Below, piece by piece: positions 3,005 to 40,173 of a stretch of DNA of 64,000 nucleotides; the stretch's first letter is position 1, and the number at the start of each line of letters is the position of its first letter. Both the position numbers and the translations under genes were made by a program. Under the pieces are notes generated by a model, which saw nothing but the letters and a program-made list of their open reading frames with translations, was not told the DNA's origin and searched no databases. This DNA comes from Tubiluchus corallicola (lineage: Eukaryota; Priapulida; Priapulimorpha; Priapulimorphida; Tubiluchidae): contig JAQGDQ010000021.1 in assembly GCA_030141605.1 (NCBI GenBank), positions 994,001 to 1,058,000 of the forward strand. The letters run 5' to 3'.

Positions 3005-3088
3005 AAAATAAATACATACAAGAGAATATGTAATTTAAATATGTATTACCGACCAACTTAATTATAATAGGTTGCCTGTTCATTTTAG

Positions 3089-5703
<2,615 letters not shown>

Positions 5704-8488: not shown

Positions 8489-9403
8489 ATGTGGATGGAA
8501 GTACAAAATGTTTCGGCTGATGACAGTACATTAGAAAATCCAGCACGCAAAACATCCTCATTGCAACAAATACTCGAATCGCGTGGAATAATATCGTCAA
8601 CTAGATCGTTATCAGCGCCAACAATTTTTTATGAGGATTCGCCAATTGTACCAGGAACATCAACTCCCTCTGTACACGAACTTCTTGAATCGTGCGGAAT
8701 CATAGCACCAACAAGATCCCCCGGACACAGACATTCTGCTTCGAGTGACTCCGAGTCCATGACGAAAATGCAACCTCGGCAGACCAGAAGTGAATTTATC
8801 ACCCCACTAGACCAGATACCGGTCCGTAAGAGAAGCAGTCTTACACTTGTAGGAAATGTTAGTAATTCGGAGACGTTGAAAAACTTGTATAAAATTCAAC
8901 CATCACTGACCATCGATCAAAACAAAAAAGACCGCGGGGATGTGCCAGTACTGCCTTCAAAACTAGGAAAGGAAACGTTGATAAAAGTTGCTTCACCTAA
9001 AAACAAATACTCTATAGCTCTTTCTGGGCAGTCAATGAACGCTTGTGCGACAGAGAAAGACGCGCAACAAAATTTTACTCAAACAAACACCGGTCTAGAA
9101 TTCAAAAATCCACAAACAAAGCAAACACCTATCTATTCTGATTCTATAAAATCAAAGAGTACAAAATCGCCAGAACACGAAAGGGAAATAGCAGGTCTAA
9201 ATGTCACACACGAATGCGAAAATTGTCGGCAAGAAATTTCGAACGATAGCGACATCGTAGCGACCATAAACCGAAACCTGGCGTTGAAAGAGCTAGACAG
9301 AGATGATATTCAAGTAAAAGAAGACCCAGGACAAATCACAGCACATTTAGCAGAAGTCGTATCACCACTGGAAAAGCTCCCGTCTAGAAGGCGAAAATTG
9401 TAG
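8489..9403 (+). CDS. Gene A: uncharacterised INE/PLxxVPSHxR family protein, 304 aa
   Basis: I do not recognise this protein. It is a single open frame of 304 polar, probably disordered residues; an in-frame stop lies just upstream and ATG 8489 is the first start. Residues about 22-39 and 62-79 form an internal duplication (SLQQILESRGIISSTRS, SVHELLESCGIIAPTRS). Near residue 110 comes TPLDQIPVRKRSS, aligned with SPIQNIPLRKRSS of gene C; both are followed by a G-rich, Ser-rich linker. The C terminus carries the family module: DIVATINRNLALKEL (9251-9295), then VSPLEKLPSRRRK three residues or fewer from the end. Genes B and C end the same way. Unlike them, no transmembrane exon is visible, so it may be soluble, or upstream exons may have been missed. 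An AAG precedes the ATG and could in principle be a weak acceptor. Coding status rests on this paralogy. Confidence 0.75.
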   Translation: MWMEVQNVSADDSTLENPARKTSSLQQILESRGIISSTRSLSAPTIFYEDSPIVPGTSTPSVHELLESCGIIAPTRSPGHRHSASSDSESMTKMQPRQTRSEFITPLDQIPVRKRSSLTLVGNVSNSETLKNLYKIQPSLTIDQNKKDRGDVPVLPSKLGKETLIKVASPKNKYSIALSGQSMNACATEKDAQQNFTQTNTGLEFKNPQTKQTPIYSDSIKSKSTKSPEHEREIAGLNVTHECENCRQEISNDSDIVATINRNLALKELDRDDIQVKEDPGQITAHLAEVVSPLEKLPSRRRKL

Positions 9404-11049
9404 ATGCTACTATTGAATCTAGGGGAGGGGGGTTAGCAAGTGGCGAAAATTTTCGAAATTTAGTTCATACAATATTAAAGTACTTCTAGAAATACTGCTA
9501 AAGTGACTAACAACAACGTTAGTTTTGTTTGTACAAGTTTTGCATCTTCTGGCAAATTCTTTGTCTTTAGTAATATTAATAGCTGTTATGTGCTAAATAC
9601 AATTTTATTAGACGATAATTTCACTGACGCGTGAGACGCTCCCAATTCATTTTAATTTCAAGGGAAAACCGATTTGATCGCAGCAAAAAAAGAGAGGAAA
9701 GGAGACTAAATTTGGCATAAGGTCGCGAATTTTTAATCACTTTTGTGGATAATAAAAATAATTTTCTCCGTTAAAGCCAAACTCACTCTACCTAATTTAT
9801 ATTACCTCTATTCATATATTTATAAAGCACATTGATACTCATAAAAATGAATTAAGATGATATTAAGCTGAGCCATTGGCTATTGGGAAAATGGTTCCAG
9901 ATTAATATGCATTGCAGCCTTCGGCAGGGTGGATGGATTCGCGCCTTTTACGAGCCCATGCCATCTGCTGGTGCATGCATGCTCAGATCAGAAATAAAAG
10001 TAGAAATTTAGCGAACAGTTGCCATAATCTGATAAATTTTACACTATAAACCAGTGTTCTCTTAAATGGTATCGTGAAGCTTAAGATTTGCAGGAGAGTC
10101 GACAACAGGTCACATAGATTGGTAAAAAAAGGTATGGACGGACGAAGTAAAATTGTTCAAAACACTGTTTTTGATGTGCAGTCTGTATTTTAATCATAGG
10201 TAAACATCATTTACATCATTCAAATAGTAAAAGTAAAGTCTATTCAGATGGCATCTTAGTAAAATGTTGTCTTTAACACAATTGCCTGTTCATTCAATCA
10301 GTATGATAAAACCACTATATTATCTGAAGAAGCCAAAAGCCCTAGTTCCCTACAAAATATATAGCGTCGACAAACTATAATAAACTGATAAATACAAAAC
10401 TTATTAGTAGGTGGCAGCACAAACTTAGCGGAAGAGTTTAACAGTCATTGTTTAATATGAGGGCAGTGTCTAGTAGCGCCGAATGAGAATTTAAGTTTAA
10501 AGTACAAATAATTACTAACAGCAAAGTTGACGAATTGGAAATTAAATACTAAATTGAGCTCTTAGCGACATATGGCTTCACGATCACCCAGGTTCTTAAA
10601 TTTTGTCAATATTCTTTGTGGTTGCAATTGGATTTTTCGTTAGCACTCTGATCCTTAGCGCTTTTGGTTGTCAATAAAATAACAAAAAATATGTTGTCCC
10701 TCCCTTTGTCACTAATCGAGATACAAATGAGCTGCAAGATCAGTATGAGCGGAGTGGCAAGTAAACGCAGTGAACACTGCCCGTTCGTACTTGTGGTTGT
10801 GGTAAGGTGATGACTTTTAACATCATAGTTTTTGTTACAACATCAAAAAACTTTTGTGACATATATGCAAAGAAAATATGAGAAAACGAGTTAGTGCTTA
10901 CTCATTTATGGCATTGTTCAGCTTGTTCTAGAACACAGATTGTCTATCAGCATTTATGTTCTATCTTTTATTACTGGTAACTAGAAAATTTGGAATTTGC
11001 TGCATATGAATACTTGATCTGCTAGGAACGTCCAAGAAAGAACGGCATC
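9404..11049. other. Intergenic region between genes A and B
   Basis: No gene or repeat of note was recognised. It includes the 3' flank of gene A and the presumed promoter of gene B; no clear TATA or polyadenylation signal could be assigned. Confidence 0.4.
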
Positions 11050-14030
11050 ATGGCTAAATATAAAAGTTTTTCAGTTTTAATTTCATTTTCGTGTTTCATG
11101 ATAACAGTTCACTTGGTCTTAAAGTAAGTGATATTGATTGTTTATATGAGTTTCATGAAAGAGCTAAATCGTCTACAGTATTAACCGGCATGTAAGAATT
11201 CTCAAAAAAATGTTTTTAAGTTACGTAGCACCTACAGACATCAGTATTATATCGGGTGCTGCAGAAAAAGTGCCGAAGTTTTGATCACGATAGTATAAGA
11301 AGAAAATAATGGAATCAATTCAGTATTACCAGGCTGATGTTACAGACACTTGTGTACAAACAGAAATTTTAAGTCATTTCCTTAGATTGTTTTAAATATA
11401 GAAAAGTTTTAGGTCAACAAGTTAAAAAAATAAATAACGGAAAAATGTTGTGTGTTAATATTGTTAAAATTAACTGCAAGTGCTCTATGTGCCCATCGTT
11501 TCCACTGCAAGCCAGGCGAAAGCATTTCTTCTAACACTTGACACTGTTTCTTTTTCTAAAGGGGCACTTAGTTCCAGCACTCAACTATTTTTGTCTTCAG
11601 TTCCGCTGGCTCTGTGCTGGCATTGTACACTTTCTCTTTAAGGGATTTCCAGATACCGTACCCCAGAGTATCAAGCCTCGTTTTTTGTCAAGAAATATTT
11701 ACTGGTTCTTTTATTTTTTCTGTTGATGGCCATGATGTTAATTGGTTGATTTCTGTATTTGATGTGTTCCGTGTATCAAGTATTTATACATCACTGAACA
11801 TGGCTTTCGTTTTTGTTGATGATTATAATTGACATTGTTCCGGTATTTAATTTTACAAACATGCAAAAGTTTTTCGGCCATAACTTAAAAACCACTAAAA
11901 CTATCAACTTGCGACTTTCACAGCCAAAAGTTAATGTATACAACATCATGCTGTGAAATTTCAACTTTGTAGAGTACTCGCCTCTAATTTTATTGTAGTC
12001 TAAATTTTAGCACATTTTTTTCTGCGCCATCCTATAAGACCTATGCAGGCCCACCGCTTGATTTTCATTAAAATGGCATTCATTGGATTTTTGTGAGTGA
12101 GCTTGTTTCTGAGCCGTGGGCGTCGTGGCACATCAACATCCCGAGAATGATGACTGCGACGACGACGACGACAATGATGAAGATGATCATCATCATAACG
12201 GTAACAACAGTTACAAAGATGACGAGATAACAATGATTATGTTGTTGATGACAATAACAGTAAAGACTAATTGGCTAAAGCTTTCAATTCTCCTCGCACA
12301 AGCAAGTAGTTTTTGAAGCTAATTAGGGTTAAGGTTAGTGTTAGGGCTAGGGTTAGGTATTTAAATAGTGTGAGGAATTTTAAACTCCATTATCCGTTTA
12401 CGTTATTAACAACATGTTGGTCTAATTTTTGGATGATAATGGTGATGATGGCGGTGGTGACGGTGGTGACAGTGGTGACGGCGGTAACGGCCGTAACGAA
12501 TGACTGTCCGTAATGTTAAATTAAAATGAGTTCAATGAATGTAAATCCTTGGTTGCATGATTATAAGGGTTATGAGTTACTATAGCTTGGCGTTAGTGAC
12601 ACCAACTACGCTAATAAACTAAGCTAATTCATTCAAAAGTTAAAATCGATTTAACGATAATGCAATTGAGAATCGTTTCATTGTTTTATAGGCTTTCTCG
12701 AATGGCAGGATTGTTTACCAGCTCCAATGACGAACACTCATGTGAAGTACAAACGGGTAAAATAATTTAATCTCCACATTACTTACAGTTATGACCTCAA
12801 CTTGAACTTTCCAAATAATTGAGAATATATTGATTTTATTTTATAGGTTTTCAAGTGCTATTGTCAAACGTTATGTTTCTTCTTTTCTTGGCTGTACTAT
12901 TTCGTGAAAACTTGTTTGGACGTACACGTTCTAATCGTAAAGTAACATCAACTACTCGTGCCGAATACGCAAGAATTAAAGAAGAAGAAGAATTTAATGA
13001 TTTTTATGAACACCACGAGGATTTAGATAAGCATTACATTACATTACCTACTAGAAAGTCGGAAAAAGAAATATATCAGCGTTCAGTGAAAACACAAACA
13101 GAAGACGGAGATCAAGAGAACCTCGAGAAAGACCAAGCAATTCAAGTCAACATGTCTGACACAGAAGTACAAGAAGAATCTGATTTAGAAAACAGCTTTC
13201 CAATATATTATCAAGCAGCTGATAAAATCCTTGCCAGTATGAGTCCAGTTACAGAAAATACGGAAAACCTTGGAACACGGAAGAAAGGCGAACAAGAAAA
13301 ACGGATTGAGTCATATGAAGTGGCAAAAGACCAAGACAGACCTTTTGGAAATGGGAAGTTTCTTGACCCATGGCATACAGACGCTAAACTGAAAGGCATA
13401 AACAAACTAGACACGAATTTTGAACCTTGCAAACGAACAACTTTATGGAAAACAGTTGACGTTGAAGAAACTGATAGAATGAAAACTTCCATTCCCTCAA
13501 TAAACCAGATACCAAATGAAAGAACTGGTGCCGTAAAAGTGACGATAATGATAAACAACAATTCGGTAAGCAATCCAGAGAATTTCGTCAACAAAGCAAC
13601 CAAATACATTGCGGTTCAGCCAACTACCAAAGCTCCTTCAAAGCTTTCATTCGTCAAAAAACCTGTAGACGAATGCTTTGTAACTACATCGCTTTCTCGC
13701 AAAGCAAAATCGTGCTTCAGTCGCCCTGAACATGCACCATGTGACGCACAGAAGCCTCTGTTCATGGAACCAATTAAAGAAGAACCAGATGAAGTTTGTC
13801 CATCTGATGGAGACGAACCAAATAACTTATCAAGGAATGACGACAAGACAATTTCCAACGACCTTGTAGTATTACTGAATGAGGAATTAGCAAATGCCGA
13901 CTCATATTCTTATGATAGTGAAGAATCGCACGATACAAGCGAGGAAATAGTTGTACAACAAAATGTAGACATTACAACAGATAAAGTCTTGCCTCTTCTA
14001 GATGTTCCGTCGCATAAAAGAAACTTTTAA
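11050..14030 (+). CDS. Gene B: uncharacterised two-hydrophobic-segment INE/PLxxVPSHxR protein, 440 aa
   Basis: Family unknown. Exons: 11050-11123 (74 nt), 12692-12756 (65 nt), 12847-14030; phases 2 then 1, exactly as in gene C. Exon 1 encodes a hydrophobic N terminus (FSVLISFSCFMITVHLVL), a signal peptide or anchor. Exon 3 opens with GFQVLLSN and a second hydrophobic stretch VMFLLFLAVLF followed by RENLFGRTRSNRK; gene C has LLLFLVTIFRRRLFG here. The basic flank suggests the long polar tail is cytoplasmic. The tail is acidic and Lys-rich with a degenerate IPSINQIPNERTG (near 13490-13530), then NDLVVLLNEELANADSYSYD (13858-13917) and the C-terminal VLPLLDVPSHKRNF. The acidic helix and PLxxVPSHxR pair is about 22 residues apart, as in gene A. 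AATAAA lies at 14197. Intron 1 contains a mobile element and a telomere-like tract. The function could be membrane scaffolding, but this is a guess. Confidence 0.8.
11250..12035 (+). mobile_element. Inverted-repeat non-autonomous DNA element (family 1), about 786 bp
   Basis: The left terminus TATCGGGTGCTGCAGAAAAA and right terminus TTTTTTTCTGCGCCATCCTATA are imperfect inverted repeats. The subterminal block CCGAAGTTTTGATCACGATA matches the 34209-34976 copy, and the right half matches 2790-3004. No transposase was seen. A TA target duplication is possible but not certain. It lies in intron 1 of gene B. Confidence 0.65.
12153..12200. repeat. GAC/GAT trinucleotide tract
   Basis: An imperfect GACGACGACGAC to GATGATCATCATCAT run in intron 1 of gene B. 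Confidence 0.8.
12323..12360 (+). repeat. Degenerate TTAGGG-like (interstitial telomere-like) tract
   Basis: A short run of AGGGTTAAGG, GTTAGGGCTAGGGTTAGG units resembling the animal telomere repeat TTAGGG with point changes. It lies in intron 1 of gene B. Confidence 0.65.
12430..12502. repeat. GGTGAT/GGTGAC trinucleotide tract
   Basis: Imperfect GAT, GGT, GAC and GGC triplets, ending GCGGTAACGGCCGTAACG. Confidence 0.8.
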
Positions 14031-14649
14031 CTTCTGGACCTAGAGGATAGGTTAATATTTTACTGGCTCTATTTAAGTAGGAAACGCATAACTTCTTCAC
14101 ATTACAATGACATAACTTGTTAGTAACATTGATGTACTTTTCACATTTTCTGTTCCATACTGTTCATGGAGCATTTGATTTGCTGCGGAAGAAAGCAATA
14201 AAATATTTTTTAAAGATTTCTGACCTCCAGGAAAGAAACGGTTTTTGTAAATTTTTCGAGATATTGTAAAAATGTTGTATATTTACACTTGGGACACAAA
14301 GAGACGATAGCGTTATGCTGAGCAAAAAACAATAAATAAATCTTATGTTATTGCTTCTATTATTTTTCATGCCTCGATTTTCATGACAATTATAACACGT
14401 ATTTACCGGGGCAGGACTTCGGAACTTCAGACAATTACTTCCCAATTTTAAGAGTTTAGCACAATGTAAGAAGGTCATGTATCACTTAATTGCTTATAAT
14501 AACAAAACTTATGGATTACATTTTGTGTTGCAGCAGTTAAGCATTTGCAAATCCTTTTTATTTTCCTGTTACTGTATTATGAGCGCGCATCGCAATTCTA
14601 CGTGAAACATGTAGTTCTGTGGGAGAGTTTCTGGACAACAGCCCAAATG

Positions 14650-15100
14650 TGAAAATCTCATATAGGCGTCTTAGTCTGAACGCGAACAGATCTTACTGAG
14701 TAGACTCAAACGTTATCCTATCCATCTAATCTAAATTAAACTCTAACAATCTCTCTAACAGTAGTAAAGATACGTTGGCGGATTTAGGGCTATAATCGTC
14801 CTAAGCTAGTCAGGGCTTTTCGAGTTACTGTCGGCAAGTTATTGCAACTTTCCGACATTGTTAAGAATTGATGCTGTCTAGGGTGCGCGGTAAGTTTGGT
14901 GCTAGTAAGTTCGGTACTAGTAATTTTGGAACGGCAAGGAATTTTTGGTACTGGTAAATATGGTACCAAACTCACTTGTACCAAATTTTACTACATTCAC
15001 TCTCTAGTCTGAATACGCTTGCGACTTGCGAGTTACTTGGCGAACTACTGTTAGTTTATTTCATGAGAAAAGATAGAAAACTTGCTAATCTGAACGCACC
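14650..15100. mobile_element. Family 2 inverted-repeat element remnants
   Basis: Contains TTAGTCTGAACGCGAACAG at about 14671, TCTAGTCTGAATACGCTTGC at about 15005, GAGTTACTTGGCGAACTA, and the right terminus AAACTTGCTAATCTGAACGC-ACC ending at 15100. These match the 7868-8094 and 48911-49223 copies. The left terminus is unclear, and there may be two overlapping copies. Confidence 0.45.
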
Positions 15101-15804
15101 CTAACGTTTCTGATATGCAAGCACTAGCTGGCTACATATAAATAGTCTACAGTGATATAAAGAAGCCACACGTGGGCGTGAAATAATCACAGTTTTTTCA
15201 ATCATATTTCTAACGTTCAAGAAAACATGTTGTTTATGATGAAAATAGAGTGCGGTAAAAATGGCACAAGAAAAAATGGCAGGATAAAAATGACATACAA
15301 CATACAAAAATGTTCCTTTATTTCTGCCAAATAGGCTAGCAAAAGGCTCACAAAATATTTGCTCATTAAATGGATTTATAATCAATAATACACGAATGTT
15401 CCACATGGTGTTTATCTACTTTTTAACCATTAATTTTGGCGATGGAAATAGACAGACAAATATATTTATTTACATAGCAAGTCACCTTATAAGGTTATAC
15501 ACAACAATAAGCAAAGGTTATAGACAACGTTACACAGTTTTAATTTACAAGCGGGAACTTCTCGAAATGGAACTGGAACCAATTCGTAGTTGTTTGTCCA
15601 GGTATGGGTAACAAAAAAGAAGTACTAAATACTCCCTCGGAGACTTCCGCAAATTGCTTCACGAATATTTTTTGTACATGGTGTTCGGTCAAGTTTTCCG
15701 AAAAGATAACCGGCGAAAAGATTTCCCTATTTTGGCACCCTATATTTGCCTTTCTTCACGAAGTTTCTTGGAAATCTGTTAGGCTTACTGCCATAACAGA
15801 CAAA

Positions 15805-15848
15805 AACAAGCAAACAAACAGACAGACAAACAAACAAATAAACAAACT
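15805..15848. repeat. (CAAA)n-type tetranucleotide run
   Basis: An imperfect run of CAAACAAACAGACAGACAAA-type units. Confidence 0.85.
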
Positions 15849-16191
15849 GTGTTAAAGCATGATTTCCTTGGCAGAAGTAAAATTAACTAAAATAATAATC
15901 TTCCACTGTAACCTAACCATAAACACACATTTTACTAAGTGTGCCATTTTTTCCAGTGCCAGTTTACCTACATTCGATGAAAATCAGTTCTATCTAATGG
16001 CATTGTTTTTTAGTATTTCACAGTTGTTCTAAAGAATTTGAACAGATCGAGTTAAACGAAATTTCAAACTGAACTGAAGTTGAACACGTATATTATGTTG
16101 AGACGATGATTTTTTAATAACCGCAATGTCTGTAATGTCATACACCAGTTAGTGATACGGGATTCGTTTGAAAAAAACAGCTAAAAGAATT

Positions 16192-19100
16192 ATGGATAAT
16201 CATAAAGACATTTTGATTGGAACATTATGCTTATGTTTGTTGGCGCTGCCTCGTCTTTTTAGACGGTGAGGTTAATTGCATTTTTAAATAAACTAAAATT
16301 AATTCGTAAAGTACCAATATTTTTTATTAGGATTATAGGAAAAAGTTTAAACAGTACATGTTACAGAAACGAGCACTGTAATTTTTAATTTTGTAATCAA
16401 CGGCCATTGTCTATCTCGCCATTTTGTCTGTTTCTTTTAGGTATACTGAGCAGTTCCCAAGAAATGAAACTTCTGATTCACAAGGAATGAGAGATGGTAC
16501 GTAGTGTTGTTAGTATAGTACTAATTTACTAGGACACTAAAGTACTAAATACTGACTGGTGACTAAGTACTAAGGTACTAAGTACTAAAGACACATAAAA
16601 TTACGAAGGACTAATTATCGGCTATTTCCTCAATTGACTAACTGTTATACTAATTCACTCACCCCAAATGTAGCTGTGGTGATTTTATAGAAAGTTCTTA
16701 ACATTACTTTTTTGAATGCATAAAATATGGTAGAGCCAGAGCAGCATTATTAGACGAACTAATCAACCACCAGATTGTAACACGTAAATCTTTACAAAAT
16801 GATAATCCTGCATTCTATACACAAAAGTATTTAAAAAATTCAAAACTGGTCATCAATCTTGCTATATTCCACACAATTTACAATAGCAGTTTATTAAATA
16901 AATCTCTCGCTTTACAATACAATAGAAATTTACTATAAGACGATTACTCAGCAACTTTGCAATGCATCTTATTATTGCTGTTGTTATTTAAATGTTGTTT
17001 TTGCGAATTAACATGCAAAACTGTTCACGTATACACCAAACTGTATTTGAGCCACGTATTTGATCTAATGAAGTGTTAGTTTGGTTGTAACGCCCATTAT
17101 TCTTTTAGTAGTACCTTGCGCTTAGCATTTGCACCGTGAAGATACTTGTATCAGACACAGTCTGTATTGTAAATTCACTTTAAACAAATAAAGTTTAAAC
17201 TAATTCACTGATTAATAAAACCCACTGGCTGGCCTGCCTTTGTCATTCTCTGACTTACAAAGTCACGAACTGATTAGGGCCCGGATTCAAGTATCGTGCT
17301 GGAAACCAGCTTTGTGCGTGAGAACGATTTACGCATGCTTAAGGATGTAGTTGCAAATCACATGTAGCAATTTAGCGATTAAGGTGTAACTCACGTGTCC
17401 ACGAAGGAAGGTGCGCAAGTTAAGTGCATTTTAAGTGCTATCCTCGATGCCTAAAACTGCCGTAGAAACGCGCGTAAAGTTACGAGTGGTCGGGAGTACT
17501 CCTAAGTCTGTTTTAGCGACGCAACCCGTGTTGACTTCCACATTATTTACAACTGCATTAAAAGGGATTATACACTTTTCTAATTCATAAAAAGAGTAGC
17601 AGCACCAGCAGTACTGCAGTAGTAGAGGTAGTAGTAGCGGAGGTAGTGCTGGTGGTAGTCCAGGCGGTGGCGGTGATGACGGTCTGACAACATCCTGTAC
17701 GTAGTCGTCACAAATTCTGCTGTTACGATAGTCACTTGGTCATGCATCATGGCAGCTCTGCTAAATCCCCCGTCATAGCCCAAACATACGAAAGTGGCTG
17801 GCAGAAGTAAAGTTTGTCATTTGCTTTTCATTCAAATTGATCACTATAATTCAAGCATTAAGGATAGGCAATTAGAGTTAGTTCGTCGTAAGCATAACAG
17901 TACTGTTCTTTAGCATCCATACAATGCAAGCGGGACTATTAAGCAACAAAATTTCAAGGTAAACAAAATAAATAAACCAGAGACAATTACAGAATAACTG
18001 CACCACAGTCGCTCTCTCTTCCTCTTTTTCACCCTCACTCTCTTCTCTCTTTCACCCTCTTTCTCGCACTCACTTACCCATCTCTACTCTCTGTCCACTT
18101 TTCGTGCTTTCTTTTCTGCGATTTTTTTTGTTTATATCAGCAGTGAATGCTCCGCAATAATTTGCACTAGACAGAATGTAAATGAAGTTATATTTCCAAT
18201 CGTGTTGGAATAATATATCGTGTTAGTATAATATATTGTTACATAGTATGTTATATTGCCACTACAGCGCTACAAAGTTACACAAGATACCTCAGAAAGC
18301 CCGTAAAAATTTCCCTCGCATATTATGAATGAAAACGCATTTAATGCAGAAGCAAAATTAATTTGACCAAAAACAACTGATAGTGTTATTATTGGTGCTA
18401 TAGCAACAGAATTATTTCCTGCGTTCAAATCGTAGGATTCTCTGTGTAAGCGACCCTTACGAATGTTATGTCGAGGCTCGCGAAAACCGCGACCACAGAG
18501 AACATTTTTGCAAGCGGTGATTCGTTAGTTTGCAATTTCAATTGCGCAAGGTTTAGGAGCCATACACTAAAACGTGCGTACGTGTAGCTAAAGATCGCAA
18601 ATCTCAAGACAGATACGTGAATTCGCTGGGCAAACGTGCATAAGCTTCTCACACGCAAACACACTTACGACAGAAAGCAAAACGTGCTTACGCAAACCTT
18701 AAGACAGATACGTGAATTCGCTGGGCAAACGTGCATAAGCTTCTCACACGCAAACACACTTACGACAGAAAGCAAAACGTGCTTACGCAAACCTTAAGAC
18801 AGATACGTGAATTCGCTGGGCAAACGTGCATAAGCGTCTCACACGCAAACATCCGTTTCGTAGGCAAGATTGGTGAACCACCATAAGTGACTAACTGACA
18901 TAACCGGCTGATTCATTCATTGTCTAGCTAACTCTCAAAATGACTGACTGCCTGACTGAGGTTAGTTTAGCTACTGACTGGCCGATCGACCAACCGACCG
19001 ACAGATTGATTGCCACTGTAACTGATTGACTGACCAAGAAAACCGTCTAACCAAACTGACTGACTAGCTGATTAGCCTAGTTACTTTCTAACTGACTGTT

Positions 19101-22100
19101 CTTCCGACTGAACTGCCTAAGTCACTGGCTAATTTGTATACCGAGTAACTCAAGTACTGACTGGTGATTGTTTGACTGAATCACTACCTAACTGAACAAT
19201 TGATTGACCAATTTAATCTTAACCTTTCTCTTCAAGAGTATTTTGAAAATGTCTGTATTATTATCAACTGTGCATTCTTTCTACAATGTCATTATTTGTG
19301 TGTTTCAGGGAATCAAGTATTTGATTACTCGCACATACCGCTTCTATTATTTCTGGTTACAATTTTTCGAAGACGTCTTTTTGGTCAACTGAATACCGAC
19401 CAGAAAGGCACACAAACGCCTATAGACCCTTGCTCGAATCAAAGAGACAATCAAAGTGTCAGACGTGGGGAAATGTCTGCTCGACCAACTGGCCGCTTTG
19501 ATCAGTCTAATAACGTCACGCATGCGCAAACCTCAGTAAGAAGAACACGTGATTACTGCAGAACAAAGTATGCTGGGATTGAAACAGTAGACAATGAAAC
19601 CCCTTCCCAGACATTTGCTGATTGCAAAGCAACAAGCAATCACAGAACATGTAGCAATGACGTCTGTGAATTAAATAATGTAGACAAGCATAACGTTGTT
19701 GATGCACATGATTCACAATATTCTGAATTTAGAAAAATTGCGCGTCCACCAATGTTGAGAAAAACGTGTGTTGATCAATACAATGAATGTAATAAAATTG
19801 TTGAAAAAATGACAGTATGCAACCAGAATAACAGCAAAGATGAAGCAAATGAATTTTTGCCCTGTACTCACACTCAGTCATGTGACGAAAGAATTTTTTT
19901 TGAAACTTCTGATTGCCCTTCCTACAGCAAACTGCAGAGCCGATCTCTTGCAACAACTATTCCGGATGACTCAGTTTTTACAGACTCAACCGTCATATCT
20001 GATGAAGACAGATTTTCAGATGTTAGTTTCAGACAAACTAACACTGACACTGATGCATCAAGCAAACAGTTTTGTCTGTCACCTATTCAAAATATTCCTC
20101 TACGAAAGCGTAGCTCAGTACCAAGTGGTGGGAATGCTGATTTCATTTCAACAACGAGCTTGTCAAACTACAAAGATTCATCAACACAAGACGATTCGTA
20201 TGAAGTTGTAAATGATCTCGTAGATTTGCTAACTAGCGGTGACGAATTTCAAATGTCTGCAGGTTATGGAAGCCATGTTGAGAAAACTACATCTTGTGAG
20301 GATGGATTAGTAGAATGCCCAGAACTTACTGAAAATAGTGAAAATTCCACGGCTATAATCCCAAACAAAGAACTTGTGCGTTTCTTTGATAGCATAACCC
20401 CATTACAGGAATCACCAGTGGTGGTCCCACGCGACAACGTAATTTATGAAAATGCAAATGAAATTAAACGTGAAAATTCAGGCGTCACGGTAACAAAAAG
20501 CACAGAAATCAGAACTAGGCCGACACCACACAGTAGTCACAAGAACACTGATGATCTGCTGACAGTTTCTTTAGAAAACAACAAACAGATGTCAGAATAC
20601 TGTTATCCTGTAAGTTCAAATAATCCGTTGAAAGGTAAACATTTAACAGAAACATGTGTATATACTGTACAAATACCGCAGGTAAACTGTATGTCAGATC
20701 TAAGACCAAGAAACCCCCAAAATCGAACTTTTCTCATTGCTACATCTGGCCTTGCTGGTGATTGTCCAAACACAAATTCATCGGCCATGCCACATATTAA
20801 AAGTGATGGTGCTCAAAACACAAACAATGTAAGCAAAGCTGATATGCTTGAAACAAAACTCCAGGATGATTCTGCTTTCTTCAAAGAACGCATAACACAA
20901 GCGAATGCAACGTCGACGCCTGTAAAATCACACGCACAAGCCACTCGGACACTGCTAGACATTAGTCCAACTTCTAGTCAAATAATGCAATTTGACAAGA
21001 GTTTAGTAGTGAACTTGCCAATTTCTCCTTGCTTCAGTGACACCAGCACCAATATTTTACCTTCCACTGAAAACAAGAAGATACTGTTGCAAACAGCGGC
21101 ACAACTTGAACGGGAAACCTTACAAAATTCGTCCCTTTTAAAAGATAGACAGGTTATTGGCGATACAGTGACGTCAATAAATGAAAAACTCGCCGAAGAG
21201 GAAGTCAAATCTTACAGCAACGAATTAAAAGTGAAAACTGTCTTTGTTGTAACAAAAGAGTGTAGCAATGCTGATACGTTAAACTTGCAAGACATATTCA
21301 CTGTATCTCCTCTTAACACAGTTCCACTGCACAAACGAATTACCGACGTTAAAGAGAACGTAACAGAAAACAACAATTACAGTACAGAGATACATGAAGG
21401 AATGGCAAACCAAAACAATGCCACGGGCTCCAATATGCAGGCAGAACAAATGTCCAAAACTTTAAAAAATGTTAAAACTGTTGTGATGAAGAGTAGTGAC
21501 GAATCATCTCACACGTCATTCAGTCAGAAAAGGAGAAGCTTTCAAGATGACTTTAAACAGAATACGGTCACAAGTGCTGGGCAGACGCATACACAAATTC
21601 AAGAAGACGATGGAACAACTTCCCTAGGTAAAGCAGAAGGAAGAGAAATGATGAGTAAAGCGTCTCCCAAAACTCAAAGGGCATTGAGCAGTAACATCTC
21701 AACAGCAGCAACGCAAAAACCACTGCTGCACAAGCTCAGTAACAGTAATGCTGCCAGTTCTAAAAGTGAAAGTACAAAAACTGATTCTAAACCAGCAGCA
21801 TCAGTAAGTACTTTTGCAGATGAGATCCTTGTACGTGAGCAACGAATTAAGAGCAATCAGAACCAAACATTGCAGAATGCTGTGGCATCCAGTTTAAAAG
21901 AGATTCATGAGCTGCACAGAATTGTGTCGCTAACAGAAAAGGTGCCAATTAAAAATTCAAAAAATTTAGTAAACATTAGCAACATTCGTACAACAAATGT
22001 TCTCTTGAAGTCACCCTTGCAACAGAAAGACCGTCCTTGTGGTACGTCTAGTATTCCAATATCATTATCAAAAACATCAATAACTATGCGTGCAAATGAA

Positions 22101-25100
22101 CAACCTGAACAAAACACAGGCAATAAAAAAGACGTAGTTGTAATAATAAATGAACGATTAGCTGAGGAAGAATTGTGCATTTATTCGTTCACACAAGATA
22201 AGTTCATTTCAGAGAACTTGTTAAAAACTTGTAAATATAGAAATATAGTGATGCCTCTTCCAAGAGTACCTTCGCACCACCGAATGACAAGTCCTGATTT
22301 GTGCAAAACAAAAAATAGTCTTGCCACTTTAAAAACAATAAGTTCGACTTTTATTGAAGAGCATAGTACAAATCCAGGAAAATGGGAACAGGACTCTCCT
22401 TACTACAATGATGGGCTATTGTATGATTTAAGTGAAAGTGATGCAGATCAGAATATCGCTGACCATCCAGAAGCGAAAAGTGCAGATGCTGTTTCACTTA
22501 TAAATGAAGAACTGGCAGAAAAAGAGCTATGTTTTTACAATGTACCAATTCTCGCAGCAAATTTTTGTCAAACTATTACGGTGTTGTATGACGAAACTAA
22601 CATTGTAGCACCACTTGAAGAACTTCCTTCACATAACAGAAATAAACACGTATTAGAAAGGAAAGCAACTGCTGATTTGGAGGTTGACGATAATGAAGCA
22701 TCTAGTGCAAAAGCAAGTGCTCAAGTTTACAGTGATTATGAGCACAAATACGTTACAATTTTAAAACATGTTCCGGCTCATGATAGGCATAACGCCCATC
22801 AACCAAAAAAGACAGTAAGTTTTAGTGGTCACGAAGAAATTTACGAAGCTGAAATAGCGCAAAATTTTTTACCTAAAAATGATCATAACCGACTTGAAGA
22901 GAAAGTTACGTCCGAAACAGAACAGGAAAACATCACAGAATTTCTGAGTTCTCCTGTGGGTAGTGATGATGAAACTGATCTACCTGTGACAAATTGTCAA
23001 AAAATGCATGTGCGTCGCCAGCAAAGAAAAATGCCGCGAAATAACATTGACAGTTCGGTTTCAAAAAGAGATTCTGATAACAAAGTGGATTCAAATCTGT
23101 GCAGTTTTCTTCATAAGAAAATTGTGTCTAGTTGTTTAAGGTCTTCAAACGTTCACTCAAATGTTGAAAAATCAGATAAGAAAGAAATGCTTAGTGAGCA
23201 AAAGCCTATTAGACCTAAAAGCAACTTGCGCATTAGGCAATATGTTGATTCTAAAGAAAAGAAGAATGATGTCAGTAGCACCAGTAGCAGCAATAACAAT
23301 AAAATATTCAACCAGGAAGAAAGTTCTTACCAAATTGAGTATAGCCCAAAGTCTGATGCAGAAGAAATATATGTACATGTAACACCATATAAGCGCCAAC
23401 AAGAAACATGGGAAAATGCTTGTCACTGCTGCAATATTTCAGTAGCACCAGATGTAACTAAACAACGAGAGTTTCATCAACAATATTATAAAGATGACAT
23501 GTTATTAGCAGCTAAAAATATTCAGCCACTCAAAAGGAGTACAAGTATGCCAGTAATTAAAGACGAGATTGCTTTATCTGGATACGCTCATCTATTCAAA
23601 AGGGAGAAGGCAACAGCAGAAAAAGGTTCTGGTGATGGAGAAACTGATACAGATGTAGATGTGGAGCCACTTGCAGATGTACCATTGCACAAACGTAGTG
23701 AAGTGTCTCCTAGCGAAAAAGATACCGGTTTAGATTCAAGTACGATAAGCAGGAAAGACAGTGGAGATAGCTGTGCAAATTTTAAAGAGTTGCACCTTGT
23801 GAAATCGCCCACTCCATTAAGAATGGATATTCCAAATAGTTGTTCTCTGGAAAACAGCAATTTTTTATCTTCAGTGAAGCAGTTACATGAAGGTAATGCG
23901 CCAAAGGACAAAGATAGTGACAGACTATTGCAAGTTGATGTTGCTGTGAACAAATTGAGCGATAAAAAACTGCAAGATACACATCGCAACAGATTATCAT
24001 CTGCAACATTGGCAAAATCTTTTGATCAGGAAACTGACAGGAAAAAAGTTGATTCAGACGAGAAAATTAGAGTAACAAAAAACCTAGAATCGCAAACCGT
24101 AAAAGATAGTCTTGGTAATTCAGCACCTTTACTAAATGATACGACGATAAAGGATCAACAGTTACTGCGAGATGCTAAATGTAATATGTTAGAAACAGAA
24201 AACAATCTATTAGATGCAAACAGCACTCACAAAAATCAGACTGAGCCACGGTGCTTCGTAGATTCTTCAAATTTTACAACATTCATAGAAAATGAAATTC
24301 AAGTTGGCGTGAAAGATGGCGTGTCTGTGTTGAATAAAGTTTTAGAAATGGAGGAGTTGCACCTAGAGAATGACAGTATTGAGAGCCAAAGTAGCTCAAG
24401 TGACTCAGAAAACGTTAAATCAAACGTGGAAGCGAACGAATTAAATAAAGTGGTGGTGACGCCACTCATAATTCCTCGACTGAAAAAACAACATAATGAC
24501 AACAATGCCGCCACTAAAACAGAATCACGTGAAAGACTTCAGGGAAAATTTTGTGGAGGCGATGTATGTTCGTTTGGCAAAGCTACACAAAGTTTATACA
24601 AAAGTGGCTCATCAAAAGGCTTGCATCAAACTTCAAAGCTGTTACAACAAATAAAAAAAGACATATATTTTACTGAAAACCCAGCTTTTGGAGGCGACAA
24701 TAATTTAACAAGCTCTTCTGGTACAGTACCGCCTTGGAATAATGTTACATGTCAAACCAGCGTCGTCAACAATGAAACTGAATTAGTGGATGAAAGTGCA
24801 TCAGTTCTGAGAAACAAAACTCATCCATTAACAAACAAATATATTGATTACATGGAAATTTCCACACATAAACCAGATGTAAACTCAGAAAATGTTAACT
24901 CCGCAGAAACGAAGGTCGACAAAATAACTTCTGCTAGTTGCAAGAGCATGGAGCAAAAAAGAGGTGATTCTAATTGTGAACAACAATTAACAACAAATTT
25001 TACAGTATCAGACGAATATCCTCAAACAACTGGCTCCAAGGCAGATAAAGAAAGTGTTCAATCTACAAAAGAAAGGAGAAGTAAAAAGGATTTTGACTTT

Positions 25101-28100
25101 CAAGGTGATCATCCGTTTATTTCTAATTCAGGTATTTTAGCAGACCAAACACAGTCATTTGACTCTACTGAAAGAAATTGCAAAGAAATCAGTAGGGATC
25201 TAATGTCCACCGACTCTGCTACAAGAATAGATGCAACGCAAGTCCATGATGTCAAATCTAAAGGAATACAGTGCACTGATGACATAGTAGCTACAATAAA
25301 TGAAATACTATCAGAAGAGAACCTACAGCTCTTGGATAAGAAATATTCTGTCAGACTAAATGAAGAAAATATTTTCGAAATAAATGGAAGTGATAATGAT
25401 TCGGCAGGCAACAAATCCGATATCAACTTTGCAGAGAACTTTCGAATTAATAATGGAAGTTCTTTTAGTGGATCAAGTTCAGAGCTAACACAAATAGAAA
25501 AGGAAAAAGTTGTCAAAATGCATAAAACTATTGACAGTGATTCAACAGGCCACCATAACGAAAATTTGTGCTGCACAGAAAACGAATTCGCCAATGAACA
25601 AAACGCTATTGGGGCAGAAGAAGTCTTGTATCATTCACAGTTAGAGTCAGCCGCCATTGTGAAACCTTTAACGAAAGTTCCTTCCCACATGAAAGGTCTT
25701 ACGTTACCATTAGCATATGCAGAAAACAGAAGTAAAGCAATTGATACAGCAATAGTAACAGTGGATAGTAAGAAACTTTCAAAAAGCAGTAACGAAGAAA
25801 TGCTCAAAGGAAATTTTGATTTAAATGATGACGCACAACCATTAAAACGAATTCCATCTCACACTCGCAGTTCGGCATTATCAATAGAAATGGAAAACCC
25901 AGATAAAACATTTATTCAAAAAGGCATGAAAGTGGACAATGAAACCAATTTTTTAACCAACAGGCGGCAAGTAGCACATCAACAAGTTTTACATCTAAAT
26001 GAAGTAGCAAATCCTTTAAAACAATCACCAACTGTCAATCACAGCAACAATGCAGTGCAGCAAATAAAAAACAAGATAATTGCTGATTCAAGGCAGAGTG
26101 TGCACATTATGGAAGAAGTCTCAGAAAACAGTAAAAGCGTGGTCCAGGGAGACTTTAGCAGAAATAACGTGGTAAAGCCGCTAATGCAACTTCCTTGCCG
26201 CACACACAGTCTTCCATCTCTAACTCACCAGGCAACGGTTGTACAAGAGAAAGACGAGACAAATGCCGAAAAAACCAAAATTGCAGATAATAACTGTGGT
26301 TTGGCAACTAATAGCAAAGAAGAAGCAAACCAAGAAATAGCTGGCTCGAATGAAGTGGCAGAACCTTTAAAAACTATTCCTTCTCACACACGTAGTATGA
26401 CATCATCAATAGACTTACATTACAAAATGCCAACTGCTGACAAAAACCAGAAGGTGAGCACCACAAAAGAAATCTCAAACAACAACGAAAAATTGTGCAA
26501 AGAAGAGTGTGACCGAAATTACTCGGTAAGACCTCTAAAGCAAATTCCTTCGCGTACACGTAGCTTGACATCGCTAACAGGGATACATTATAAAGACAAG
26601 GACATTCTTAAAGCAAGCAATACAATAGATGCCAAAAATGTGAGTCAGCTGCAAGAAATTGGTGGCAAAAATACCCAAACAAAACCTCTAAGAAACGTCC
26701 CTTTGCGTTCACGCAGTTTAACATCAAAAATAGATGAGATGGCCAGAAAAACGAAAGCTGAAATCGCAGACAGAAAGTTAGTCTCACAAGCTGGAAACTT
26801 GTTTAATAATGTACGAAAATGTCAGTCACAAATTTTAGCAACATTTTTAAACGAAACGAAAAGCTGGTCGAATGTTGGCTTAACTGCATCTTCAACTGTA
26901 CCGCTAATAGACGATAAATCAATGAGAAAGAAAACGAAATGTGAAGATATGAAAACAAAAATATCAACGTCGGGTAACACAGATACAGCTGATATTGATA
27001 AATCACCAAAGACCTTGGCTATTCAACCTCAGACTTTGTCAGTGCTAGCAAATGAAAGACGGTATGTCCAGTCAGATGCTAAAGTTAATCGGAAACAAAG
27101 TATGAAAGATGATCTTCACGAATGTTGTAATAAAGAAACCAAATTACAGACCGAGACACATTTAACTGCACAGGTGAAAATAACACAAGATGTTCCTTCA
27201 TTAGTAGCTAACGAAACAATGCATTCAACACAGAAAGAAATAGGTGTGACAGACAAAAGTTCTTTTTTTGGATTCGAGCCAACAAAGCCAGTTCAGCTGA
27301 CAATGAACACTGAGAGTTCAGATTATGATATAACAAGCGAAAGTGTCACATCAGAAGACGAATTAGCATCAAAAAGTTATTTAGGTATTAATTTAGTTAA
27401 ACCCTTAGAAAAAGTCCCAGCTCACACCAGGCATATGACTCGGCCAGCATCAGAAAAAGCACACAAAATTGAAGCAGTAACTGACAGTAACGCAGCCGAG
27501 TTGGAAGTTGAAAAACCAATTTTAAGAAAGTGCCACGCTTATACAAGCTCAGATCCTGAAAATCAGAATACCATAAATGCAATTTCTAGACAAGTAACAA
27601 AGTCTTCATCTGAGCTTCAAGTACCAACTTTAGAGAGCCCTGATCATTATTCTAATAGAAACAAAGATGAAACAACCCAAAATGGGAACCATTTTAATAC
27701 CTTCGCTTATGCTCGGATTCAGACTGTTCAGTTAAGTACTAAAATAAATGAATGCACAAATAAAACAGCTTGTGGTACAAATAGTGACCTTTTAGAAGAT
27801 ACCACGAACCCAGAAGATAATTTCCAACACGAGCGAAAGGTACAGAATGCCGTAAATGAAACAGACTTGCTAAATGAACCATTAAACAGTGAAGACCTTG
27901 CTTATTCGTCTAATGAAGGTCTTGTTTCTGACACAGACGAATGTCCACCTGATCAAGAAAAAGCTGAATTCGAGGAAGCTGTGACGCCACTAAAGAAATT
28001 TCCCTCCCACACTCGGCAAGTAGAAGCACATCATGTAAAAGAGGACAATGTTGATGTTGCCAATACCGCTGAACTAAGCGAAGACCATTCTACTAAAATT

Positions 28101-28868
28101 GACTTAACTATTTTTGCAATTACCTCCTCTGATGATGAACACATTTCGTATTATGACAACGGTTCCACACAGTCGTCATCACCCCGTGAAGACTATGACG
28201 TTGCAAGTAGCGACAGCAATAAAAGAGCAACAAGAAAAAGAAACATCCACAACGCTACCGAAAGAGCTTCTGACGAAATGCAGCTGTCATGTCATAGCAT
28301 AAGGCAACTGGACTATGTGGATTTATACACAAAAAACAATATTGATCTTGCCAGAAGACAGAATGATACGCCTATTAACGTTAGTCATGGAAATTATGAT
28401 GATATTGTGTTTAACAGTATGTTGCACTTTCCAACAAATTTGGCTACAACGTCGTGTTCATTGACAGAAAAATATGCAACTAACGTTATAGGCAACAATA
28501 ACAAACTAAAAAACCAACAATACATCGCAGATGAAAAGTCCAGTTTAGCAAGTGGCCCAAGAAAGGACTCGGTAATAAATGACACTTGCGAGAGGTGTGC
28601 TATTAAAGACAACGAGAGAAAATTGAAAACAGAAGCACGTACAGACATAAACATTTCGTCGTTCATTAATCAAAGGTTGACAGAAGACGAGTCACATTCC
28701 GTGTCCAACAGTGATACCCGGGACAAACATCAGACAAAAGAACGCGACACAGAAACACAATTTAACACGGCACCAGCAGCTCAAGAGCGAGTGCAATCAA
28801 GCGAGGTCGTCCCACTAATAAGAAAATTACCATCACGTAAACGAAAAGCTGCTTTTTTACAATCTTGA
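16192..28868 (+). CDS. Gene C: giant uncharacterised INE/PLxxVPSHxR repeat protein, 3229 aa
   Basis: Family unknown; clear paralog of gene B. Exons: 16192-16265 (74 nt), 16441-16496 (56 nt), 19309-28868 (9,560 nt); phases 2 and 1 as in B. Exon 1 encodes MDNHKDILIGTLCLCLLALP then RLFR; exon 3 begins GNQVFDYSHI and the second hydrophobic segment LLLFLVTIFRRRLFG. About 3,150 polar residues rich in Asn, Ser, Lys, Glu and Thr follow, with few aromatics, so probably disordered and, by the positive-inside rule, cytoplasmic. Acidic INE helices lie near 21163, 22131, 22486, 24316, 25282 and 28650. PLxxVPSHxR motifs lie near 20076, 21303, 22248, 22605, 22752, 23661, 25660, 25834, 26170, 26359, 26527, 26680, 27397, 27982 and 28807, with several decayed ones. 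The protein ends with a full module. Frame continues upstream to 19200 but that is intron. Role unknown; a scaffold with many binding or phosphorylation sites is one possibility. Confidence 0.85.
16500..16620. repeat. Degenerate AGTACTAA repeat
   Basis: Repeated AGTACTAA, GGTACTAAGTACTAAAG-type units in intron 2 of gene C. Confidence 0.6.
17279..17535. other. GC-richer island, possible decayed element
   Basis: Starts GGGCCCGGATTCAAGTATCG and carries CGCATG, CACGTG and GCGCGT motifs, standing out from the AT-rich surroundings. Words such as GTGCGTGAGAACG weakly resemble the inverse of the 18600-18850 repeat. No coding frame was seen. Confidence 0.3.
17591..17678. repeat. AGC/AGT/GGT trinucleotide tract
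   Basis: Imperfect AGTAGTAGCGGAGGTAGTGC triplets in intron 2 of gene C. Confidence 0.75.
18005..18118. repeat. Pyrimidine-rich (CTCT) tract
   Basis: Over 100 bases of mostly C and T on the plus strand (CTCTCTCTTCCTCTTTTTC and similar). Confidence 0.8.
18606..18860 (+). repeat. 95-bp tandem repeat, about 2.6 copies
   Basis: AAGACAGATACGTGAATTCG recurs at 18606, 18701 and 18796, an exact 95-base period with almost no divergence. Each unit contains CAAACGTGCATAAGC and TCTCACACGCAAACA. It lies in intron 2 of gene C. Confidence 0.95.
18937..19190. repeat. Degenerate (GACT)n tetranucleotide region
   Basis: Repeated CTGACTGACT, GACCGACC and ACTGATTGACTGACC words with many substitutions, just before the third exon of gene C. 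Confidence 0.75.
25659..26724 (+). repeat. Dense PLxxVPSHTRS coding sub-array inside gene C
   Basis: Six clear motifs within about 1.07 kb: VKPLTKVPSHMKG, AQPLKRIPSHTRS, VKPLMQLPCRTHS, AEPLKTIPSHTRS, VRPLKQIPSRTRS and TKPLRNVPLRSRS, plus a decayed ANPLKQSP copy near 26008. Spacing is about 50-65 residues, and the flanking DNA between motifs is not conserved. After the motif, Ser or Thr follows the Arg in most copies. This is the densest part of the repeat array and lacks the INE helix partner. Confidence 0.85.
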
Positions 28869-29290
28869 ACTGAATATTTTATGATTAAGCAATGTTGTCA
28901 CCCACCACACCGACATCCATTAATATTCATGCTGGTTTTGCTAGCGTGCAGCTTTAGCTTTACTAAGATTTCGTAAAGACATAATAACATTGATAATAAT
29001 TTTGATAATTATCCTTTTTGTTAATATTTATTTAATTTATTTAATGTATTTATTGATTTTGTAATAATACGGTTCAGTAATGAGATCCCTGTCATGATAT
29101 GTAAACAAGCAATATCGGTACAACTTTCAGTTATGCAATATTTTTTGCCTAACAAAAATTACTCACATTCAGTGTTTACCTACACGACTACACTTTATAC
29201 CTAATTTTAGAAATAACGACTTCTCCCTTCTTTAACAGGAAACCATTTTCACTAGAGTAGCATATTTTTTAGCATAGTATGTACTATCAT

Positions 29291-29292
<2 letters not shown>

Positions 29293-29337
<45 letters not shown>

Positions 29338-29365
29338 TGATCATATATATCTATATGATCAATAC
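29293..29365. repeat. (AT)n tract with a palindromic end
   Basis: (TA)n followed by TATTGATCATATATATCTAT and ATGATCAATA, giving an inverted repeat around the TATCTATA centre. Confidence 0.85.
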
Positions 29366-30253
29366 TCAAAATTCTATGGCGTTCTAATTACGGTTGCAAA
29401 TTTTTTTTAAGCGAAACAAATGTATAAATTACACTTTATTATCCTATTTAAGGCATATTATGATCCAATTAAGTGTTTAAACGTATGACACAATTTCACT
29501 CCCCCCCCCACACGTGTTGACTGAAACACATGGAGCTCAATACTTGTGGTGACTGAATGTTTTTTATATAAAAATTACTAATACCGTTGTCGACAATTTT
29601 TCAGCAAAAGTGCTGCCGGCAATTTGCACCTATTGGTCCATGGTTAGGAAAATGTCTTTTGAAGAAGTTAAGATACATAGGGCCTATTTGGCGCAGTTGG
29701 TCGGATGTTGAAGATTTCTATATTATATGATGTTATATTATATATTACAAGCAGCCTATATTATATGATGACGTCACACGTTTTGTACGACATTCTACTG
29801 CAGTTGCTACAGTAACACACCACAAACAGTTTCACTTTGGAACAGTAAAGAATGATCCTAAAAACGACGCGTGTAGTAATCACTCATAAGCATTAGCATC
29901 ATGACTGCATATAAACTGTCACCATATCATTCACTTCGTAGTATGTTTTGTCCGCTGTGACAGTCAAATGACCTTAGACATCCGTTCCGTTTGTCTCCTT
30001 ATTTCACGATTCCCAAGACCTAACAATCATTTTAGTGAATTTTTTTCTAGGGACAGGCAAACAAAAACTTTTAATAACACAATACAGGTCAAAAGTAAAC
30101 AAGACTTTTTTGTGTGCCTATGTACCAAATTTTGTTTGCATAAAAGATTTTTACACATCAAGCTGTTGAAAAGAAACAATGTGTAGAATCTTTGCAATGT
30201 CATGTTAGCGCGATAAAAAAAACCAATGAATGTTGAATTTTGGGACTGCTCAA

Positions 30254-32345: not shown

Positions 32346-40173
<7,828 letters not shown>

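Follow-up and report, generated by a model that had tools for sequence, protein, structure and literature searches.

Three tandem genes of Tubiluchus corallicola share a paired H-P motif and may encode a family of membrane-tethered disordered scaffolds

A stretch of 64,000 nucleotides (nt) from the priapulid Tubiluchus corallicola (assembly GCA_030141605.1, contig JAQGDQ010000021.1, positions 994,001–1,058,000; hereafter the window) carries three genes, designated A, B, and C, which lie in tandem on the plus strand and encode proteins of 304, 440, and 3229 amino acids (aa). Each protein terminates with a helix motif H, (D)(I/V)VxxINExLA, followed by a motif P, PLxxVPSHxR. With a probability of about 0.5, we consider that the three genes form an animal family not described before, whose products would be disordered scaffolds in the cytosol, tethered to a membrane and bearing docking sites, with A as an untethered form. 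We favour this reading because the motifs recur above shuffled sequences, matrices trained on one gene find them in the others, the H-P spacing is kept, and the N termini of B and C are alike. An initial annotation of the window, made from the letters alone, had proposed a same-strand tandem family of three genes, and the gene models, the cross-gene motif matrices, and the exon design of B and C bear this proposal out.

The coding starts of B and C lie 5′ of the one long open reading frame (ORF) of each gene. All four introns, two in B and two in C, are of the GT-AG type, every frame stays open, and the resulting protein lengths agree exactly with those given by the initial annotation. When each gene was scored with codon usage learned from the other two, the frames of A, B, and C were all positive (0.165, 0.186, and 0.116 bit per codon, respectively). 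The 99th percentile for the best of six frames was −0.010 in 300 pieces of window 37001–62000, a control region assumed to be intergenic and scored with the C+B model. The sequence AATAAA, resembling a poly-A signal, was found at 14197, 3′ of gene B; neither AATAAA nor ATTAAA was found from 28868 to 30200, 3′ of gene C. Intron 2 of gene C contains, at window 18596–18851, a tandem repeat with a 95-bp unit in 2.7 copies that are 98% alike.

The last P begins 11, 11, and 16 residues ahead of the C terminus in A, B, and C, respectively. The strict P pattern occurs once in A, once in B, and ten times in C, with a mean of 0.0 in shuffles; copies matching a regular expression (regex) number 17 across the three genes, in surroundings that have heavily diverged. 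Matrix scores were judged against the 99th percentile of the maxima in shuffled proteins, given here in brackets. The P matrix trained on the 14 copies of C scored 27.4 (11.1) at the C terminus of A and 20.0 (10.3) at that of B, and the C-trained H matrix scored 21.4 (10.5) and 19.2 (11.8) in their C-terminal modules. Reverse matrices were trained on the three P and two H copies of A and B. The P matrix detected 12 sites in C above the 99th percentile of 14.9, a 13th equal to it, and a 14th at 14.0; the H matrix placed four of the five regex H sites above 14.6, while H at residue 3163, belonging to C's own terminal pair, scored just 6.1. The two motifs, which the initial annotation had noted as common to the three proteins and C-terminal in all of them, thus stand well above shuffles when sought from one gene to another. 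Tandem Repeats Finder detected no array within the C exon, so the copies in C appear to be old, with their likeness kept at the protein level. The sequence PSINQIPNERTG of B was tried as a second P copy and rejected, as the P matrix did not select it. Several P motifs in window 26100–27500 (C residues 2308–2774) are followed by RSxTS or THSLP, which we take to resemble basophilic kinase or 14-3-3 sites.

H and P are also spaced non-randomly. At five of the six H sites of C, a P lies within +28 to +55 residues (36, 37, 44, 44, and 50), the exception being 123; this count takes in the weak pair of H 1718 and P-like 1762, which was added by hand, and P-like 1194, and omits H-like 2898. Equal or better pairing was obtained in 30 of 100,000 random placements and in 13 of 3228 circular shifts. 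The H-to-P distance is 33 in A and 39 in B. We infer that the module, in which a proline/basic motif follows an acidic amphipathic helix, is most likely a docking site for a single partner protein.

Beyond the motifs, B and C have in common three exons, a 74-nt exon 1, intron phases 2 and 1, two hydrophobic segments, and LFG. Residues 9–82 of B align with residues 7–80 of C (E 2.5e-4 in one pair comparison, without composition correction). Judged by this shared exon design and the aligning N termini, the two genes are paralogues by more than their motifs. Neither the hydrophobic segments nor the common exon architecture figured in the initial annotation, which had described the sequence around the motifs as not alignable. 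This description is not supported as it stands, since B and C align over the first ~80 residues with the same intron phases, and A and C may be weakly alignable outside the motifs. Residues 169–304 of A match C 2825–2948 with 27% identity (E 3.7e-5), and A 239–303 matches C 3133–3223 with 29% (E 0.009, with a shared CExC); both comparisons include the motifs and were made without composition correction. Comparison of A with B gave chance-level matches only, and no hydrophobic exons for gene A were found in the scan made. The three genes would form a small animal family that originated by local duplication.

Relatives of A, B, and C were sought among 5.8 billion proteins. For B, one relative was found among 2516 scored, P0002 (428 aa, source label ‘lgn’), which matches B from end to end with 72% identity, exons 1 and 2 included. 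Its frame is uninterrupted on a 1724-base contig and contiguous across the sites of the B introns (1568 and 90 nt). Since these introns total 1658 nt, the contig has just 1724 bases, and the frame is unbroken, we read P0002 as a probable spliced transcript, with a retrocopy as the alternative. The initial annotation had made its proposal depend on transcription of the frames; for B, the evidence points towards it, as P0002 spans both intron sites.

The pair B and P0002 is the sole orthologue-like comparison. Identity is 0.96 in hydrophobic segment 2 (TM2), 0.94 in a block containing TQT and IQV, 0.87 in a block containing QIPNER, and 0.87 in P, followed by hydrophobic segment 1 (TM1; 0.83), H (0.78), and the linkers and loop (0.51–0.74). 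TM2 and the two blocks are conserved as much as or more than the H and P motifs, and on this comparison B carries further conserved parts unnamed by the searches made. A stretch of 75 residues of B around QIPNERTGAVKV (window 13473–13697, residues 256–330) is 87% identical in P0002 and received no name from any search made.

B and C are probably inserted into the membrane by their two N-terminal hydrophobic segments, with a loop of ~25 residues between them and, behind the second, a basic border that includes LFG. The Kyte-Doolittle mean of segment 2 over 19 residues is 2.22 in B and 1.30 in C; segment 1 of C reaches 1.61. Because segment 2 of C is weak, anchoring of C is argued from its likeness to B and from segment 1. 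The basic flank behind TM2 suggests that the tail lies on the cytosolic side. The same N termini might also belong to secreted or luminal precursors, in which exon 1 would encode a signal peptide that is cleaved off and P would end in basic processing sites (HKR, RKR, HTR) that release peptides. By eye, exon 1 looks like a signal sequence, and N-glycosylation sequons are present in the loops of P0002 (N-S-S) and C (N-E-T), with none seen in B; basic pairs end several P motifs, and the weakness of segment 2 in C would also fit. We regard such precursors as highly improbable, given the second hydrophobic segment with a basic flank behind it in B (weaker in C), the many P copies that end with HTR or HNR and are not dibasic, and the lack of a hydrophobic segment in A.

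If B and C are membrane-inserted, the remainder of each protein most likely extends into the cytosol as a disordered tail. Residues S, N, D, E, K, T, Q, and P make up 59% of C, and both B and C fall on the disordered side of the charge-hydropathy line. An AlphaFold model of B exon 3, built from B and P0002 (two sequences), had a mean predicted local distance difference test score (pLDDT) of 35.3. TM2 alone was confident, as a helix with block pLDDT of 77–85; residues 22–393 were below 50, and the QIPNER block formed a low-confidence beta hairpin. In line with the initial annotation, the tail looks disordered by composition and by AlphaFold being confident in TM2 alone.

The conserved TQT/IQV block raises another explanation, according to which B, and perhaps C, would mainly serve as an adaptor that links the dynein light chain LC8 to the membrane, with LC8 dimers bridging TQT and IQV close by and H-P being secondary. 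The published LC8 pattern is [D/S]-K-X-[T/V/I]-Q-[T/V]-[D/E] (PMC3078936). We counted the core as [T/V/I]Q[T/V/C], our own and slightly wider choice, against 500 shuffles. B contains SVKTQTE and, 16 residues on, DQAIQVN, both in the block that is 94% identical to P0002. The core occurs three times in B, where shuffles average 0.49 (5 of 500 reach three), and twice in P0002 vs. 0.44 (39 of 500), and KGTQTP stands in C directly after hydrophobic segment 2. When two of the three flanking residues, D/S at −4, K at −3, and D/E at +2, were required in addition, counts were one in B vs. 0.02 (11 of 500), zero in A, and one in C vs. 0.30 (130 of 500). However, the six cores of C are not above chance (5.10 expected; 199 of 500), for which LC8 was rejected as an explanation of C. 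The two in A (vs. 0.48; 41 of 500) lack flanking support, one of the three in B sits in the loop between the hydrophobic segments and is missing from P0002, and the pattern was picked after the sequence had been viewed. LC8 is therefore unlikely as the chief partner; by these counts it is a possible second partner of B, and not of C.

No known family accounted for the proteins. Pfam at E ≤ 1 gave nothing for A, the long ORFs of B and C, or a neighbouring gene; full-length P0002 gave only DHHC (0.072) and DUF4458 (0.19), both below the cut-off. Searches with eight module copies returned DUF3736, DUF7067, and Cmr1_C (E 0.07–0.21), each in one of the eight copies, which we took as chance. In PDB, there was no match for the C ORF or a module profile and one for P0002 (E 1.6). 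The motif pair, unrecognised by the initial annotation as part of any named family, thus received no credible Pfam or PDB assignment, module copies and profile included. With the whole of C as the query, no relative was found among 7999 scored, in a search that misses pieces covering less than 0.55 of C. A profile of two rows, one a 467-aa piece of C and the other A, found none among 5601 scored, which is weak evidence because the two rows are poorly alignable. Five short family peptides were not found printed in the literature searched, and Rfam gave no match on the window.

The genome searched comprises 343.5 Mb in 2344 contigs, among which COX1 was not found. Queries with A and with B each retrieved themselves alone. 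The query with C (2999 of 3229 aa) retrieved itself, a 461-bp fragment on C660, and a match on C469 (E 0.51), which lies in a repeat array. Module residues 983–1042 of C found themselves and the next C module; the start of B exon 3 found B, C (E 0.33), and a match on C463 (E 0.71) taken as chance. Known members were missed: the B query did not reach A or C, the A query did not reach B or C, and the C module query did not reach the modules of A or B, so further distant members may exist in the genome. In the 100 kb on each side (5000 N), the motif matrices at a cut-off of 14 gave two isolated P and no H outside the family genes, vs. one match in shuffled flanks; at a cut-off of 11, there were 7 matches vs. 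2. No further H-P pair was found in these flanks. The fragment at C660:20654–21114 is a copy of part of C exon 3 (window 23698–24149) with 90% identity and is apparently unconstrained, as its mismatches are distributed 10/15/10 by codon position. Dispersed repeats at window 11404–12036 and 34271–34832, together with shorter stretches, also occur on C660 with 69–80% identity; one of them lies in intron 1 of B.

Several observations weigh against a family of tethered disordered scaffolds. Segment 2 of C (1.30) hardly exceeds an internal stretch of C at residue 1118 (1.28). By charge and hydropathy, A falls marginally within the ordered range. The low pLDDT, coming from a two-sequence alignment, fits disorder and is no proof of it. 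Ten of the 14 regex P sites of C (nine, counting H-like 2898) have no H within 55 residues upstream, so the H-P pair is not obligatory. Between B and P0002, H and P together are identical at 27 of 33 positions vs. 293 of 407 elsewhere (hypergeometric probability 0.15); the earlier claim that selection acts on the motifs is not supported by this comparison and rests on that between paralogues. Neither A nor C yielded a relative in the searches made, so transcript-type evidence is limited to B; to our understanding the searched databases hold few animals, and the missing relatives tell little.

The lack of significant excess conservation of the motifs, together with a single relative across all protein searches, would also suit a motif pair that is a conserved yet ordinary leftover of a rapidly evolving orphan family, whose short segments are retained although they have no partner in common. 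We consider this unlikely in view of the 17 regex P copies amid heavily diverged surroundings, the kept spacing of H and P, and the ending of all three proteins with the pair.

If the scaffold reading is right, B would offer one putative docking site and C several, with extra P sites, so that C as a multivalent scaffold could concentrate its partner at the membrane; A would be an untethered one-site chain able to compete or to bridge. A more specific proposal, which we advance tentatively and with less confidence, is that H-P is a new two-part docking module of a lineage-restricted family with graded valency, setting the amount of a common partner at the membrane. The valency would be one untethered pair in A, one bound pair in B, and four clear bound pairs in C (up to six with degenerate ones) with about 15 P, a gradation that is equally tentative. 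If H-P does dock, the three genes would represent a natural valency series for a single partner (one untethered, one tethered, many tethered), the short conserved family peptides would be ready baits, and C would illustrate how one long exon can give rise to a giant disordered protein through repetition of a short two-part motif. If it does not, A, B, and C would be one more fast-evolving orphan family. The positions of all features are listed in Table 1.

Table 1. Positions in the window of genes A, B, and C, their exons, and their H-P modules.
Feature	Position	Strand	Description
Gene A	8489..9403	+	One open frame, 304 aa, no hydrophobic segment; 1 H and 2 P motifs, single H-P pair C-terminal
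C-terminal H-P module of A	9245..9400	+	H and P found with C-trained matrices (scores in text)
Gene B	11050–11123 + 12692–12756 + 12847–14030	+	440 aa; GT-AG introns
Gene B exon 1	11050..11123	+	74 nt, hydrophobic segment 1, phase-2 donor GTAAGT; tblastn with P0002: 84% identity, 25 aa
Gene B exon 2	12692..12756	+	65 nt, short loop, phase-1 donor; contiguous in P0002
Gene B exon 3	12847..14030	+	Hydrophobic segment 2 and LFG, TQT/IQV block, QIPNER block, C-terminal H-P module, stop; 72% identical to P0002
C-terminal H-P module of B	13854..14027	+	H and P found with C-trained matrices (scores in text)
Gene C	16192–16265 + 16441–16496 + 19309–28868	+	3229 aa; GT-AG introns
Gene C exon 1	16192..16265	+	74 nt, hydrophobic segment 1, phase-2 donor GTGAGG; length and intron phase as in B exon 1
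Gene C exon 2	16441..16496	+	56 nt, loop with N-E-T sequon, phase-1 donor GTACGT
Gene C exon 3	19309..28868	+	9560 nt; weaker hydrophobic segment 2 and LFG, then ~3160-residue polar tail with 14 regex P and 5 regex H
H-P module in C, residues 660–727	21156..21359	+	Regex and matrices
H-P module in C, residues 983–1042	22125..22304	+	Regex and matrices
H-P module in C, residues 1101–1161	22479..22661	+	Regex and matrices
Degenerate H-P module in C	24309..24494	+	H at 1718 scores 14.0 (shuffle 99th percentile 14.4), outside training set; P-like at 1762 scores 3.3, not significant
Six-P cluster in C, residues 2163–2503	25650..26740	+	Spaced 51–113 residues; no H ≤55 residues upstream
P at C residue 2937 with H-like at 2898	27852..28037	+	P scores 32.0; the H-like site scores 2.2, not significant
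C-terminal H-P module of C, residues 3156–3229	28644..28865	+	H missed by A+B-trained matrix (6.1)

Upstream of the family, exons of a neuroendocrine 7B2/secretogranin V gene are present on the plus strand at window 3039–5700. PF05281 matched positions 4510–4659 with E 7e-13; the match on 3129–3278 was below the cut-off (E 0.064), and further exons were recognised by eye. Downstream, a secreted-looking gene occupies window 32346–36660 on the minus strand and encodes EGF domains (PF00008) followed by a 452-aa Tyr/Pro/Lys repeat exon, e.g., YEPKPTPNYEHPP. The repeat exon has no Pfam family and presumably resembles adhesive or byssal proteins. An uninterrupted 566-aa frame with MGNWLRNEGPTWLLF (L005, ~3958–5655, minus strand) lies 64–66 kb upstream of the window; it looks like an intronless copy of an NADPH oxidase.

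The architecture is of a known kind, with a motif pair that appears undescribed within the searches made; the novelty of the family is provisional, because animal proteomes were hardly covered by them. Clients of the LC8 hub, with several TQT/IQV sites, are comparable in that short docking motifs are spaced along a disordered chain such as the one proposed here, and B keeps two LC8-like sites in P0002; they differ in that H and P do not follow the LC8 pattern and LC8-like sites are not enriched in C. The SPATA31/FAM205 genes of mammalian testis have short leading exons, an N-terminal hydrophobic segment, and a very long exon, and are tandem and fast-evolving. The exon layout, the hydrophobic N terminus, and the tandem arrangement are alike, but a Pfam scan at E ≤ 1 that covered A, the B and C long ORFs, and full-length P0002 matched no SPATA31/FAM205 family. 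Multivalent scaffolds of short linear motifs, which usually have a known partner, carry repeated short motifs in disordered linkers, and in A, B, and C such repetition above chance is seen in the shuffles, the matrices, and the pairing.

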